From: Syntrophomonadaceae bacterium
GTDB taxonomy: Bacteria > Bacillota > Dethiobacteria > DTU022
DNA length: 10,102 bases
Direction of reading: 5' to 3'
Assembly (NCBI GenBank): GCA_003564055.1
Contig: PWSG01000185.1
Coordinates: forward strand, 1-10,102
A program made the translations under genes and the position numbers. Below are positions 1 through 9,190 of the stretch, in pieces (position 1 is the stretch's first letter; each line of letters begins with the position of its first letter). The notes under the pieces were generated by a model. That model did no database searches. It saw only the letters and a list, made by a program, of their open reading frames with translations, and was not told where the DNA came from.

Positions 1-1173
1 AAACCCGCCGGAATTAACCATAATTCCCTCACCTACGTACGCTTCTTCCATGGTTTCACCAGCTAGGTCCCCACCTTCCGGTTGGATAACCACCCTGATA
101 GGCAGTTTATATTTCCGGGCAAACTCAAAGTCCCTCTGGTCATGTGCGGGAACCCCCATCACAGCGCCTGTGCCATATGCCATCAGAACATAATTACCAA
201 CCAAAATCGGCACCTCTTCTCCATTAGCCGGATTAACGGCATAGCGACCGGTAAAGAGACCAATCTTCGGCGCTTCTTCCGACGTTCTTTCTATTTCACT
301 TTCCTTTTTAACCCTGGCCACAAAATCGAGCACCTCTTTTTCCTGTTTCGTCCCCTCCACCAGGCGGTTAACCAGGGGATGCTCGGGAGCTAAAACCATG
401 TAGGTTACGCCATATAGAGTATCAGGCCGGGTAGTAAAGGTGCGAATTTCGTCATCTGGAAAACCTTTGACCCCGAAAGCAATCTCTGCACCTTCACTGC
501 GCCCGATCCAGTGCTGCTGCATAATCTTAACCCGTTCCGGCCAATCTTCGAGGGTATCAAGATCGTAAAGCAGCCTTTCAGCATAGTCAGTTATCTTTAA
601 AAACCACTGTTCTAATTCACGTGGCTCAACAACTGAAGAGCATCGCCAGCAAAGACCTTTTTCAACCTGCTCGTTGGCCAGCACGGTAGCACAATGACTG
701 CACCAGTTTACATCTGCTTTTCTTTTATAAGCCAGACCGCGCCGGTACATTAAAAGGAAAAGCCACTGCGACCAGCGATAATAATCAGGCGCCGAGGTAT
801 TTACTTCCCGCCTCCAGTCATAGCTTACTCCCAGGCGGTTTTGCTGCATCTTCATGTGTTCTATATTACGGGCAGTCCATTCTGCCGGGTTTACATTGTT
901 TTCAATTGCTGCATTTTCAGCAGGCAAACCGAATGCATCCCAGCCCATGGGGTGAATAACATTGTAATTACGCATACGCAAAAAACGGGCTAAAACATCA
1001 CCAATGGAATATACCCTCATATGGCCCATATGAAGCTTTCCGGACGGGTAAGGAAACATCTCTAAAACATAATACTTGGTTTTAGATTCATCTTTATTTG
1101 CCCGGTAAAAATCTTCTTTTTCCCACTGTTTCTGCCAGTATTCTTCAATTTGAGCAGGATCGTAATTATTCAA
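1..1173 (-). CDS. leuS: Leucyl-tRNA synthetase, N-terminal 391 codons (3' end outside window)
   Basis: Charges tRNA-Leu with leucine in the cytoplasm (class I aminoacyl-tRNA synthetase). The visible part holds the first half of the catalytic domain: the HIGH-type motif HMGH at residues 48-51 within [11 protein letters not shown], the zinc-binding module with CSHC and CWRC cysteine pairs around residues 150-175, and the beginning of the CP1 editing domain with TTRPDTLYG. The KMSKS motif would lie beyond the left edge. The start is TTG at 1173-1171: a TAG lies two codons upstream in frame, a GGAGG sits at 1184-1188 ten bases away, and the N terminus ([17 protein letters not shown]) fits the family. 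The gene is preceded by a leucine-specific T-box leader and terminator, so its expression should rise when uncharged tRNA-Leu accumulates. Identification is very secure; the gene is truncated only by the window. Confidence 0.97.
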
Positions 1174-1199: not shown

Positions 1200-1228
1200 A
1201 AAAAATCCGCCCGCTAAAGGGACGGATT
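1200..1228 (-). terminator. T-box intrinsic terminator of the leuS leader
   Basis: Read on the minus strand, AATCCGTCC (1228-1220) pairs with GGGCGGATT (1212-1204) in a 9-bp stem with one G-T pair and a 7-nt loop, followed by a run of T ending at 1200. The upstream arm overlaps the 3' arm of the antiterminator: AAGGG (1252-1248) pairs with CCCTT (1221-1217), and GCGG (1240-1237) with CCGT (1225-1222). The two folds are therefore mutually exclusive, as expected for a transcriptional T-box switch. It would also serve as the only obvious terminator for the embedded tRNA-Ala gene. Confidence 0.9.
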
Positions 1229-1266
1229 GTATATACCCGCGGTACCACCCTTATTGGTCAAACATT

Positions 1267-1341
1267 TGGTGGAGCTGGCGGGAGTTGAACCCGCGGCCTC
1301 TTCCATGCCAAGGAAGCGCGCTCCCACTGCGCCACAGCCCC
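1267..1341 (-). tRNA. tRNA-Ala (anticodon GGC), CCA encoded, nested in the T-box leader
   Basis: All cloverleaf parts are visible on the minus strand: acceptor GGGGCTG paired with CAGCTCC (one G-T), D arm GCGC-AGTGGGA-GCGC, anticodon stem CTTCC/GGAAG with loop TTGGCAT giving anticodon GGC (reads GCC, alanine), variable loop AGGCC, T arm GCGGG-TTCAACT-CCCGC, discriminator A and an encoded CCA; 75 nt in all. No mispairs suggest decay. It has no convincing promoter of its own. The leuS leader promoter at 1533-1561 would transcribe it, so release would require RNase P and 3' processing out of the leader RNA. The 5' end is 12 nt after T-box stem III and the CCA is 15 nt before the T-box core. Confidence 0.95.
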
Positions 1342-1532
1342 TCGTTATGCTACCCGCTTTATACCGTTAACGCCGGTTATACGTCTGCGGCTTATTTATT
1401 GCCTCAGCTTCTCCGGGACGAGTTCAGCAGTTTAGCCTGCCGGTTTTCAGCTAATCCCGGCTCTCTGCTTAAGCATTCCTGCTTACTACTTCCCTTCATC
1501 AATTTATATATAGCACCTCGAGTACATTTAAC

Positions 1533-1561
1533 ATTATATGCACGCTATATACCCTTGTCAA
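1533..1561 (-). promoter_or_regulatory. Consensus sigma-A promoter of the tRNA-Ala/leuS leader
   Basis: On the minus strand the -35 box TTGACA (1561-1556) and the -10 box TATAAT (1538-1533) match the consensus perfectly with 17-bp spacing. Transcription would start near 1526, immediately upstream of T-box stem I. It begins 15 bp after the stop codon of the thiF-like gene, so leuS has its own promoter although upstream readthrough is possible. A perfect consensus is consistent with its driving a stable RNA gene as well as a leader. Confidence 0.9.
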
Positions 1562-1575
1562 TAGCATAGATATTT

Positions 1576-2445
1576 TTAGCCCTTAACTTCAACTAAAAAC
1601 GATTCTCCTGACTGCATATCGATAATTTGCATTTTATCTTCAGGAAGGACACCCTCTATTCCGGCCAGGATCTTTACCACTTCGCTGACCTGCCATGAAG
1701 CAAGCATGGCCGGAGTTGTTGCCGGATTGCCCAGGTGCATCTCTGCGCCTTTTTCAGCTTTTCCGTCATATGCCGGTCCATAGATATACTTTAATACAGG
1801 GTTATCCGGCCTGATTACTGCCATTTGGCCCAAAAAGCCTGCAATAGCACCGTGGACCATGCAAACACCAAGCTTGCCGCATGCTTTTTCAAGGGCATAA
1901 CGTGAAGAGAGATTGTCGAGACAATCTAAAACCAGATCGCAGTCTGCAAAAACTTCGGTAAGGTTTGAAGCGTCACCTCGCATCTGAAACGCCTTTACTT
2001 CCAAAGCGCCATTTATCTCAGATATACGCTCCGCTGCAGCATCTGCTTTAGAACGTTCAAGGTTCTTTTCAAGCGAGACTAATTGTCGGTTTAAATTGCT
2101 GTCGCTAAAAACATCGTCGTCGACAATTATCAACCTGCCAACACCCATACGAGCCAGCAACTCGAGGGCAAAACCGCCCAGGCCACCTGCGCCTGTAATA
2201 CCTACAGTTGAATTAAGAAGCCTGATCTGCCCCTTAATGCCCACTGTGCCAATACTGCGCTGGTAACGTTCAGGAATTATATCAGCTTCCAGGGCAGCAA
2301 TTTCAACTGCCTGTCTGCTTACTCCATGCTCTCTTGCTATTTCTATTGAAGCAGAAAGTGATAAGGAAGCGTAATCATCTCCTGCCGGATTCTTTTTTTT
2401 TGAAGAAGCATCTGAAACCACCTGGCAAAGATTTTTCTGTTCCAT
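1576..2445 (-). CDS. HesA/MoeB/ThiF-family E1-like adenylyltransferase
   Basis: Members of this family adenylate the C-terminal Gly-Gly of a ubiquitin-like sulfur carrier (MoaD or ThiS type). Numbering from the upstream ATG at 2451, the nucleotide-binding loop GAGGLGG is at residues 87-93, followed by the acidic DDD (111-113), the NRQ with the conserved Arg (121-123) and LDCLDN (175-180). The CxxC zinc pairs of MoeB/ThiF are not visible and there is no clear catalytic cysteine in the usual crossover loop, so transfer of sulfur is unproven. The roughly 80 residues before the Rossmann fold, with a helix-turn-helix-like stretch, form an extra N-terminal segment. Two ATG codons are possible, at 2451 and 2445; the second is preferred because GGGGG at 2453-2457 is only one base from the first but seven from the second. 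It follows rsfS by about 20 bp. A role in tungsten/molybdenum cofactor or thiamine sulfur chemistry is inference; the tungstate transporter in the same window favours the former. Confidence 0.85.
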   Translation of the reverse strand: MEQKNLCQVVSDASSKKKNPAGDDYASLSLSASIEIAREHGVSRQAVEIAALEADIIPERYQRSIGTVGIKGQIRLLNSTVGITGAGGLGGFALELLARMGVGRLIIVDDDVFSDSNLNRQLVSLEKNLERSKADAAAERISEINGALEVKAFQMRGDASNLTEVFADCDLVLDCLDNLSSRYALEKACGKLGVCMVHGAIAGFLGQMAVIRPDNPVLKYIYGPAYDGKAEKGAEMHLGNPATTPAMLASWQVSEVVKILAGIEGVLPEDKMQIIDMQSGESFLVEVKG

Positions 2446-2469
2446 CTGCATGCCCCCATTTTTTCTTAG

Positions 2470-6632: not shown

Positions 6633-6664
6633 GCACATGTAACAAAATTACATAAACATTTCCT

Positions 6665-6809
6665 TCGATCCATTTTTTCTAAGGTGACGCTTAAGTTACT
6701 ATGAAAAATGGACGATAGGGTTCGGCTGGAAACGGCCGGGCCTCCCGTTGCGGAAAGAAGGTACGGTAAACGCTTACCATCGTCGCATTTCCCAACGGGG
6801 AAATTGCGA
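6665..6809 (+). promoter_or_regulatory. Moco/tungsten-cofactor (Moco RNA motif) type riboswitch
   Basis: A hairpin at 6665-6715 contains CTAAG on one side and TATG on the other, resembling the 11-nt GAAA-tetraloop receptor (outer pair U-A instead of C-G). A 6-bp hairpin at 6723-6738 (CGGCTG-GAAA-CGGCCG) supplies the GAAA tetraloop. It runs into GGCCTCCCG, which resembles the conserved core of the Moco RNA motif as I remember it. A GGTAA-ACGC-TTACC hairpin is at 6765-6778. Two larger pairings compete: GACGAT (6711-6716) with ATCGTC (6779-6784), and CCCGTTG-c-GGAAA (6744-6756) with TTTCCCAACGGG (6788-6799). The class is known upstream of molybdate and tungstate transporters, so a tungsten- or molybdenum-cofactor ligand is likely. 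Assignment rests on structure, core sequence and the gene it controls; no covariance search was possible. Confidence 0.8.
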
Positions 6810-6815: not shown

Positions 6816-6853
6816 ATTATATCAAATACATTGGCTAAATGGTGATCTATAAG

Positions 6854-7726
6854 ATGAACAACAAAAGCAGCGACTATAAAGTATATTTTTTTTCATTTCT
6901 ATTCATAGTATTAATGCTTATAATGCCAACCGGGTGCAGCAGAATAGATGAAAGCCCCGAGCAAGCTCAAACTGGTCAAGAGAAATATATTCACCTGGCT
7001 ACAACTACCAGCACCTATGATTCAGGACTGCTTGATTTTATAAACCCGGTATTTACCGCAGAAACAGGAATTGCAGTCCGGGTTATTTCACTGGGAACCG
7101 GGGCGGCGCTGGAATCGGGACGGCGGGGGGACGCTGATGTGCTGCTGGTTCATGACCGAAGCGCTGAACTTGAGCTGGTAGAAGAAGGCTATTTTACCGA
7201 TCGTTACGACTTAATGTACAACGATTTTATTATTGTCGGACCGGCGTATGACCCGGCCGGTATCCAGGCAGTCGATTCGGTAACAGGAGCTTACATGATC
7301 ATTGCCGGTTCGGGCAGCAAGTTTGTGTCCCGCGGTGACGACTCCGGCACTCACAGAATGGAAGAAAGCCTTTGGAATAAAGTCGGAATTGAAACTAAAG
7401 GCCGGGACTGGTATTATTCAATCGGGCAGGGTATGGGCGATACTCTGCGTTTTACAAATGAAGTGCTTGGTTATACCCTGACCGACAGGGGCACTTATGA
7501 AGCAATCAAAACAAACCTTGATCTTAAAGTTTTATATGAAGGTGACCCTGCTCTTTATAATTATTACGGCATCATGGCTGTTAATCCGTCAATACATCAT
7601 CATGTTAAATATAATTATGCCATGGAGTACATAAACTTTTTAATCTCGGACACCGGGCAGGACTTAATTGAAGCTTATGAAGTTAACGGAACAGAACTGT
7701 TTTTTACCGATATTAGAATAGACTGA
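6854..7726 (+). CDS. tupA: Tungstate ABC transporter, substrate-binding lipoprotein
   Basis: TupA captures tungstate outside the membrane for the TupBC transporter. Signs: a hydrophobic signal segment (residues 10-25) ending in PTGC with the lipid-carrying Cys at residue 28, the oxyanion-binding TTTST at 50-54 followed by DSGLLD, GDADVLLVH at 92-100, MYNDFIIVGP near 121-130 and SRGDDSGTH at 159-167. These are the TupA rather than ModA hallmarks. The 290-residue length fits. Two ATGs are possible; 6854 is chosen because GGTGAT sits seven bases upstream, while the ATG at 6839 has no Shine-Dalgarno. First gene of the tup operon, behind the riboswitch. Specificity for tungstate over molybdate is inferred from family. 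Confidence 0.94.
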   Translation: MNNKSSDYKVYFFSFLFIVLMLIMPTGCSRIDESPEQAQTGQEKYIHLATTTSTYDSGLLDFINPVFTAETGIAVRVISLGTGAALESGRRGDADVLLVHDRSAELELVEEGYFTDRYDLMYNDFIIVGPAYDPAGIQAVDSVTGAYMIIAGSGSKFVSRGDDSGTHRMEESLWNKVGIETKGRDWYYSIGQGMGDTLRFTNEVLGYTLTDRGTYEAIKTNLDLKVLYEGDPALYNYYGIMAVNPSIHHHVKYNYAMEYINFLISDTGQDLIEAYEVNGTELFFTDIRID

Positions 7727-7755
7727 AGAATAAAGACATAGTCGGAGGTTACCCT

Positions 7756-8454
7756 TTGTCTCAACTAATTGAAGGAATACTAGAAGCATTTCGGCTTATT
7801 ATAGCCCTTGATGAAGATCTGCTGCATATTGTTTTTCTGTCACTGCGTATATCCGGTTTGTCAATAATTATTGGCACCCTGTTCGGAGTACCTCTGGGTG
7901 CCCTGCTGGGCTTAAAATCAGAAAAAAATACCCGCCTGGCCAGCAAATTAATTTTCACCCTGATGGGGACCCCGCCGGTTGTAGCTGGCCTCTTAATATA
8001 TTTACTGCTTTCCAGAATGGGCCCTTTCGGGGTATTGGGTTTGATCTACACCCCTGCGGCCATGATTATTGCCCAGGTTACCCTGGCCACCCCGATTATC
8101 GCCGGTTTGACCATGGTCGGTGTCCGCTCCCGGGGCAAAGAGGTCGTGGAAACAGCCCGTTCACTGGGTGCCGGAGCCAGCCTTATTACCTGGACAGTGA
8201 TTAAGGAATCGCGTATAGCAATTCTTGGTGCTGTCATAACCGGCTTTGGACGGATTATAGCCGAGGTCGGAGCGGTCATGATAGTTGGTGGCAATATTGC
8301 CGGGCAAACCAGGGTCATGACAACCGCCATTGTCCTTGAAACCAGGCGGGGGAATTTTGAACTGGCAATCGGACTGGGTCTGATCCTGCTCATCCTTTCC
8401 TTCTTTATTAACTCTTTCTTATATAATTTCCAGAAAGGGGGGCGCAGCAATTAG
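7756..8454 (+). CDS. tupB: Tungstate ABC transporter, permease
   Basis: Membrane partner of TupA and TupC. The 232-residue protein has about five hydrophobic segments and the ABC-permease cytoplasmic EAA-type loop (ETARSLGAGASLITWTVIKE, about residues 132-151), which docks to the ATPase, followed by GFGRIIAEVGAVMIVGGN. The start is TTG at 7756-7758 with GGAGG seven bases upstream; no ATG precedes it. It lies 29 bp after tupA, and its stop codon overlaps the likely start of tupC. Confidence 0.94.
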   Translation: MSQLIEGILEAFRLIIALDEDLLHIVFLSLRISGLSIIIGTLFGVPLGALLGLKSEKNTRLASKLIFTLMGTPPVVAGLLIYLLLSRMGPFGVLGLIYTPAAMIIAQVTLATPIIAGLTMVGVRSRGKEVVETARSLGAGASLITWTVIKESRIAILGAVITGFGRIIAEVGAVMIVGGNIAGQTRVMTTAIVLETRRGNFELAIGLGLILLILSFFINSFLYNFQKGGRSN

Positions 8455-9190
8455 TAATTATAAAACCATTGTAACTTTAAAAGGCATTAAAAAAATTTAC
8501 GACCAGGAAGTACTCAGCATAGATTCTATGACATTGCATGCAGGAAAAATTTACGGATTAATCGGCCCAAGCGGTGCCGGAAAAAGCACATTACTAAGAA
8601 TCATCAACCTGCTGACCCCTGCATCAGTCGGCACATACCTATTCCAGGGTGAACCTCTCCCGGAAAACGGCCGGAATAAGCTTAAAATACAGCGCAAAAT
8701 GGCCCTGGTCTTTCAAAAAACCCTGCTTTTTAAGGACAGTGTCTGGAATAATGTTGCTTATGGCCTGAAAGCCCGTAATTTCAACAGTAAGGAAACAGAA
8801 AAAAGGGTAAACCTCCTTCTTGAACAGGTTGGCATGGAAGAACTGGCAAACCGCCGCGCCGACACTCTTTCCGGCGGTGAAGCCCAGAGGGTTGCTATCG
8901 CCAGGGCAGTAGCTTTTGAGCCTGAACTGTTATTGTTAGATGAACCGACAGCAAACCTTGATCCAGTTAATATTGAAATTATAGAAAATATGATTTGCCA
9001 GATGAATCGAGAAAAAAAAATCACTGTTGTAATGGTTACTCACAACGTTTTCCAGGCCCGCCGCATTGCCAATGAGGTAATCTTTATAGAAAATGGAAAA
9101 GTAGTTGAAATGGGACCGACTAAAAAGATTTTTTCTGACCCGGAAAAGGAAAAAACCCGTCTCTTTGTCGAGGGAAAAATGATCTACTGA
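8450..9190 (+). CDS. tupC: Tungstate ABC transporter, ATP-binding protein (probable ATT start)
   Basis: ATPase of the tungstate importer. Numbering from ATT at 8450 (246 residues): aromatic A-loop Y17, Walker A GPSGAGKST at 39-47, Q-loop Q89 in VFQK, signature LSGGEAQ at 140-146, Walker B LLLLDEP at 160-166, H-loop His at about 198. An ATG at 8528 would remove the first beta strand and Y17. No ATG, GTG or TTG exists in frame between the upstream stop at 8381 and 8528. ATT at 8450 overlaps the tupB stop (ATTAG) and has an AAAGGGGGG seven bases upstream, so it is the best start. ATT as start is rare (known for infC). Alternatively a frame or sequencing error hides a normal start. The domain assignment itself is secure. 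Confidence 0.9.
   Translation: MSNYKTIVTLKGIKKIYDQEVLSIDSMTLHAGKIYGLIGPSGAGKSTLLRIINLLTPASVGTYLFQGEPLPENGRNKLKIQRKMALVFQKTLLFKDSVWNNVAYGLKARNFNSKETEKRVNLLLEQVGMEELANRRADTLSGGEAQRVAIARAVAFEPELLLLDEPTANLDPVNIEIIENMICQMNREKKITVVMVTHNVFQARRIANEVIFIENGKVVEMGPTKKIFSDPEKEKTRLFVEGKMIY

Follow-up and report, generated by a model that had tools for sequence, protein, structure and literature searches.

The leuS leader described here is very probably dual-purpose: it appears to be a T-box riboswitch that houses, in the loop of its stem III, a gene for tRNA-Ala(GGC), as a rule the only one found in the genome. The architecture of the leader, its conservation, the covariation of its helices and the presence of a sole tRNA-Ala(GGC) match in most carrier genomes all speak for this reading. 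The arrangement was noticed in a 10,102-nucleotide stretch of DNA (the window) from a Syntrophomonadaceae bacterium (contig PWSG01000185.1 of assembly GCA_003564055.1); its parts are listed in Table 1.

Table 1. Parts of the leuS leader and their positions in the window.
Feature	Position (strand)	Basis
leuS promoter, sigma-70 type, TTGACA-17-TATAAT	1533..1561 (-)	pattern scan; consensus 12/12
T-box leader RF00230, single	1215..1508 (-)	cmscan, 105.7 bits (gathering 93), E 4.1e-23
Specifier codon CTC (Leu)	1420..1422 (-)	GAACTCG segment, read from sequence
RRRNG purine motif AAGCG, 5' of stem III	1355..1359 (-)	sequence
Stem III 5' arm, GGUAGCAU	1347..1354 (-)	covariation over 78 distinct arm pairs
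tRNA-Ala(GGC), encoded CCA, G3-U70	1267..1341 (-)	ARAGORN
Stem III 3' arm, GUUUGACC	1256..1263 (-)	arm pairing counts
AA motif, 3' of stem III	1254..1255 (-)	sequence
T-box core, GGGTGGTACCGCG, antiterminator 5' strand	1238..1250 (-)	sequence and cmscan alignment
UGGU bulge inside T-box core	1247-1244 (-)	
Intrinsic terminator	1204..1228 (-)	T-box model alignment and pattern scan
leuS, 5' part, runs past window edge	1..1173 (-)	TIGR00396, 578.6 bits (cut-off 548.4)

Judged at the sequence level by every feature tested, the leader is a T-box with an unusual stem III. The RF00230 match spans the whole model (1-219 of 219) with a 93-nt insertion, inside which the tRNA lies, and the tRNA model RF00005 finds the latter within the T-box match (68.9 bits, gathering score 29, 1341-1270, minus strand). 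Stem II and the IIA/B element are visible in the model alignment, the CTC specifier agrees with the identity of the regulated gene, and the CCGUCCC segment that forms the 5' strand of the terminator doubles as the 3' strand of the antiterminator. The sequence and the pattern scan thus provide the two mutually exclusive structures: the core (1250-1238), the shared CCGUCCC and the terminator (1228-1204). The promoter is the sole promoter-like match between 1150 and 1650, a region that yields 1.0 match on average at the scan threshold when shuffled. The initial annotation had described an intact tRNA-Ala lying within a Leu(CTC) T-box, upstream of the terminator; cmscan, ARAGORN and the sequence agree with this description, and both covariance models accept their part of the locus. 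The same annotation had placed the tRNA between the end of stem III, set at 1354, and the core. This needs correction: position 1354 begins the 5' arm, and the 3' arm (1263-1256) comes after the tRNA. A separate, complete T-box downstream of the tRNA was considered and rejected; where a match is found there is one per locus, and it encloses the tRNA. The source genome has six other T-box loci, all without a tRNA inside. Folding the locus as a single sequence gave nothing unusual (z +1.54 and -0.43), and the lowest-energy fold was not a cloverleaf; such folding being uninformative, the evidence used here is that of covariance models and comparison.

Upstream of the leader, between rsfS (2470-2862) and the leuS leader, lies a MoeB/ThiF-like gene (1576-2451, minus strand) that scores below the curated cut-offs; in several relatives an RsfS-like end was seen by eye directly before the leader. 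Elsewhere in the window, a molybdenum/tungsten cofactor riboswitch (6651-6776, plus strand, 72 bits) precedes a tungstate-type ABC transporter (6839-9190) composed of a TupA-like binding protein (211 bits, short of the cut-off of 400), a permease-like frame and an ATPase.

On comparative grounds, the tRNA stands where the leuS T-box would otherwise have the apical loop of its stem III, between RRRNG and AA. Passages in PMC7778990 and PMC7583486 describe an RRRNG-stem III-AA motif in T-boxes and present stem III as an indispensable part of the discriminator that senses aminoacylation. In the window the order is AAGCG (1359-1355), GGUAGCAU, tRNA, GUUUGACC and AA (1255-1254). Stem III arms around the tRNA form a mean of 5.06 of 6 pairs, against 4.45 +- 0.06 once the 3' arms have been exchanged among loci, a control that ignores relatedness (z 9.9); at least five pairs are formed in 54 of 78 arm pairs, whereas shuffling gives 40.4 on average and 50 at most. 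These arm pairs are the distinct ones among 98 loci, 8 of which were skipped as the anchors were absent; the test was anchored on RRRNG and AA, and all registers were tried, with equal freedom for the shuffles. Changes on both sides of a pair are common, most of all at the third pair, which is T-A in 37 cases, C-G in 23, A-T in 2 and G-C in 2, and non-canonical in 8 of 78. Only three of the six pairs are formed in 6 of the 78 arm pairs, and the genus to which the window belongs has a weak, short stem III (GGU/ACC plus interrupted pairs). In an earlier count in a single register, the paired fraction over the first five positions was 0.845, against 0.735 +- 0.011 for shuffled and 0.18-0.55 for slid partners; over eight pairs the same rule gave 0.762 against 0.644 shuffled (11 of 98 loci skipped, 71 distinct), and a first, poor anchor rule 0.698 of eight pairs against 0.584 shuffled. 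RNAalifold predicted no stem III on a MAFFT alignment in which the 5' arm had been misplaced, and for this reason pairing was counted by scripts anchored on RRRNG and AA.

The leuS T-boxes that lack the tRNA carry an ordinary hairpin at the same spot, between RRRNG and AA, in 31 of 37 segments (35 from the census described below, plus L023 and L061 of Tepidanaerobacter), under a rule demanding RRRNG, then three or more contiguous pairs, then AA. The rule is failed by L234, L244, L271, L276, L277 and L023; in L023 and L244 a hairpin is seen by eye, one or two bases off. The length of this hairpin is variable. Taken together, the comparison indicates that the T-box can fold around the tRNA and, as stem III pairing is kept, that it seems to be under selection to work with the tRNA in place.

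The tRNA, too, has been preserved by compensatory changes. RNAalifold returned the cloverleaf on 36 loci, with double changes in 11 of 23 consensus pairs, no cloverleaf pair broken in any row and G3-U70 kept in 36/36. All 98 distinct loci hold tRNA-Ala(ggc), each with CTCCA at the 3' end; copies with no encoded CCA occur in L080 and in genomes of family f16 (L256, L260, L261), within leaders that otherwise look intact. The strict pattern used for searching (T-arm, CCA, 2-32 nt, core) is neutral as to amino acid and misses any copy that has no CCA or whose core has diverged; all of its listed matches, 34 in the class and 61 in the phylum, are tRNA-Ala by their CTCCACCA end. A tRNA-Ala(GGC) pattern, applied to 80 of the 89 genomes positive for the strict pattern, matched in 77 and gave a single match, coinciding with the embedded gene, in 75 of the 80. 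A second match is present in G230 and G419, and none was obtained in G018, G029 and G373 although the embedded tRNA is present, so that this pattern misses some genes. In the source genome, the nested gene is the only Ala gene among nine tRNA family matches. Its standing as sole pattern match in nearly all positive genomes makes it likely that the embedded tRNA is transcribed, processed and charged. The notion of a tRNA-like mimic was discarded on account of the covariation and the sole-copy status.

In all 20 related loci to which the covariance model was applied, the tRNA falls within the T-box match, which excludes chance and assembly error. The match spans the tRNA in 17 of 19 further loci (11 above the gathering score, 6 below) and in 7 of the 12 leuS loci of the genome contig set that have a tRNA close upstream. 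As for the remaining five, L019 and L026 hold the core and the CTC segment on inspection, and a T-box core was not found in L024, L037 and L082. Within this contig set the arrangement is found in 10 of 80 leuS loci (L009, L010, L012, L013, L019, L020, L025, L026, L028 and L080), counting L010, which was outside the T-box model run, and L019 and L026, which fall below the gathering score. The strict pattern matches 34 of 97 genomes of the source organism's class and 61 of 398 across the phylum (38 of 267 genera, 19 family labels); a control pattern gave no match in the phylum-wide scan. Among the carriers are cultured strains: Thermosyntropha lipolytica DSM 11003, Halonatronum saccharophilum DSM 13868 and Desulfofundulus thermobenzoicus DSM 14055. 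In 91 of 98 loci an AACTC precedes the tRNA by no more than 330 nt, and 95 of 98 retain, downstream of the core, the CGYCYC antiterminator/terminator strand followed by a T run. For a census that leans less on the strict pattern, 101 genomes were drawn evenly, 98 of them with a LeuS match, and 97 upstream regions were covered (G136 left out). The tRNA is inside 21 of 56 leuS T-boxes and absent from 35, two regions have tRNA-Ala without a T-box core and 39 have neither, T-boxes being called here by core motifs instead of covariance models, so that those farther upstream escape (for G112, only about 185 nt were available).

On a LeuS tree the tRNA label is clustered, with 12 changes against 52.6 when shuffled, in a sample whose positives were picked by pattern and negatives by LeuS similarity, and whose T-box-without-tRNA group has 2 rows only. 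This clustering is consistent with one old origin followed by losses. Three rows of family f43 stand apart on a long branch. In that family (L167-L169), LeuS is 47.6-48.3% identical to that of the window, yet the same T-box with tRNA-Ala is present; perhaps the leader was transferred or leuS replaced.

Several loci depart from the common layout. L024, L037, L082, L164, L214, G134 and G139 retain the tRNA with the T-box lost or truncated. Five of these (L024, L037, L082, G134 and G139) have tRNA-Ala before leuS with a promoter-like sequence just upstream of the tRNA, and no T-box core was found upstream of leuS in G134 and G139; at least two strict-pattern matches, L214 and L164, lack the 5' half of the T-box. 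The L027 sequence starts within the tRNA, with no core after it. The converse, a T-box leader that lacks the tRNA, occurs more often than a tRNA without the switch. These losses and the T-boxes of the census that have no tRNA show that the two elements are separable; the tRNA-free T-boxes may be ancestral or may have lost the tRNA. In L010, L181-L185 and L299, an acyl-CoA synthetase-like gene directly follows the tRNA-bearing T-box, so that the Leu T-box would control that gene. Pfam assigns a piece of L185 to the AMP-binding family, and the genes of L010 and L181-L184 were recognised by the look of the frame. Where visible, the synthetase-like gene stands before leuS, which is next in L010 and about 1.9 kb after the tRNA in L299. 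Stem III accommodates further sequence alongside the tRNA in L019 (about 100 nt) and L186 (a repeat-rich insert). Side observations concern other parts of the leader. L187 has a tRNA-bearing leuS T-box (53.3 bits) with a much shortened stem I that keeps the CTC segment. In L173 (1326-1585), L171, L026 and kin (families f28 and f84), stem I nearly abuts stem III by eye, and these leuS T-boxes apparently have no stem II or IIA/B pseudoknot; a passage in PMC7583486 names glycine T-boxes as those naturally without the stem II domain. Six-tRNA clusters upstream of leuS in L294 and L297, where no T-box core was found, are unrelated to the nesting.

How might such a leader operate? We infer its transcription, processing, timing and working regulation as follows. 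One promoter would drive tRNA-Ala, T-box and leuS. From the order promoter, sensor, tRNA, antiterminator/terminator and leuS, it follows that every transcript, terminated or read-through, would include tRNA-Ala, as the initial annotation had reasoned in stating that the tRNA is made whatever the T-box decides. The supply of tRNA-Ala would track the promoter, and leuS would be further controlled by uncharged tRNA-Leu via the T-box. Since the base of stem III and its flanking purines are kept, the domain that reads the 3' end of tRNA-Leu could still form, and the tRNA would extend outward from its tip. Afterwards tRNA-Ala would be freed by RNase P together with 3' processing, which would part stem I from the antiterminator half; this severing of the sensor, also put forward initially, seems plausible. 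An RNase P cut would separate stem I from the discriminator, and hence the decision would have to precede the cut, or else the cut would limit the decision. Processing should in this way restrict the switch to a single co-transcriptional decision.

A less demanding view is that the tRNA is a passive passenger in a tolerant loop, kept as the sole tRNA-Ala(GGC), with the T-box indifferent to it and processing taking place long after the decision. We give this view somewhat less than an even chance. It is a weaker form of the dual-purpose leader and not its opposite, so that the chances of the two overlap. The variable length of the hairpin in tRNA-free T-boxes, the persistence of the tRNA where the T-box is lost and the sole copy, which explains retention, are all in its favor; indeed, the need to keep a sole tRNA gene could by itself account for the long conservation. 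The pairing of stem III maintained around the insert argues against indifference, and so does the nature of the 5' flanks. Of 75 distinct flanks of the embedded tRNA, 49 have the dinucleotide GU or GG just before the gene; among other tRNAs (from 30 tRNA loci of carrier genomes and the source genome) the figure is 22 of 99. The flank rows are related. Both dinucleotides are reported, in a passage of PMC9433436, to be slow for E. coli RNase P. One reading of these kinetics is that the RNase P cut is itself part of the control, ending the sensing period, maturing the read-through leuS mRNA and setting its stability, and the 5' end of the tRNA does fall between the sensor and the antiterminator in every locus with a full T-box match. 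We nevertheless hold this to be unlikely: the enrichment is among related rows, the window's own flank is GA, and AU, an optimal dinucleotide, is also common (23/75 embedded against 16/99 others). Moreover, flanks of the window's own family are mostly GG (20/37) and those of other families mostly GU (44/61), a split by family which means that few independent changes may underlie the enrichment. The slow dinucleotides can thus be taken as a lead only. Quite unlikely, in our estimation, is the more elaborate version in which the nested tRNA would be a working part of the switch, its folding completing and lengthening stem III and a deliberately slowed RNase P cut timing the end of tRNA-Leu sensing and maturing the leuS mRNA. 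If true, a single RNA would couple the maturation of a tRNA to the control of a synthetase in many Bacillota families.

The remaining alternatives carry little weight. The initial annotation had suggested that the embedded ACCA might compete in cis for the T-box bulge. The ACCA can pair with the UGGU, 19 nt away; however, it is internal, within stem III, whose geometry would hold the two apart, and the existence of the CCA-less copies of f16 and L080 makes such competition very improbable. Misassembly or chance juxtaposition is hardly conceivable. The window does come from a metagenome-assembled genome (1.62 Mb, 74% complete, 337 contigs), but the layout recurs in the 20 related loci and the 61 phylum genomes mentioned above, with no control match, and the single-contig genomes G110, G116, G143 and G193 are included; the concern about assembly error voiced at the outset is thereby allayed.

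Transfer RNA genes are co-transcribed with mRNAs or in rRNA spacers and excised from longer transcripts. The tRNA of the dual-purpose leader likewise lies in a longer transcript, but here the surrounding RNA is a tRNA-sensing riboswitch, which excision would halve. That riboswitch has the components of the leuS-class transcriptional T-box (RF00230), namely stem I with CTC, stem II, IIA/B, RRRNG-stem III-AA and core, with antiterminator and terminator, ahead of an aminoacyl-tRNA synthetase gene; it differs in stem III, whose apical loop is formed by a tRNA gene for another amino acid, complete and functional-looking. Passages of a review on T-boxes (PMC7583486) mention curious insertions of unknown function in every domain, stem III included, and T-boxes with insertions in stem III or helix A2 are known; here the insertion is a tRNA. 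The term "tRNA gene" is absent from the main text of that review. We found no description of a tRNA gene in a T-box in the open-access literature searched; early T-box surveys might mention one, and priority is uncertain. The nesting is easily overlooked, possibly because separate tools call the tRNA and the T-box.

The gene of one tRNA resides inside the RNA device that senses another, in 19 family labels of a sample from one phylum. The arrangement shows where stem III tolerates a large domain, and the nesting would force a measurable race between tRNA maturation and the co-transcriptional decision. In many species, the apparent only tRNA-Ala(GGC) would come from the leader of a synthetase gene.
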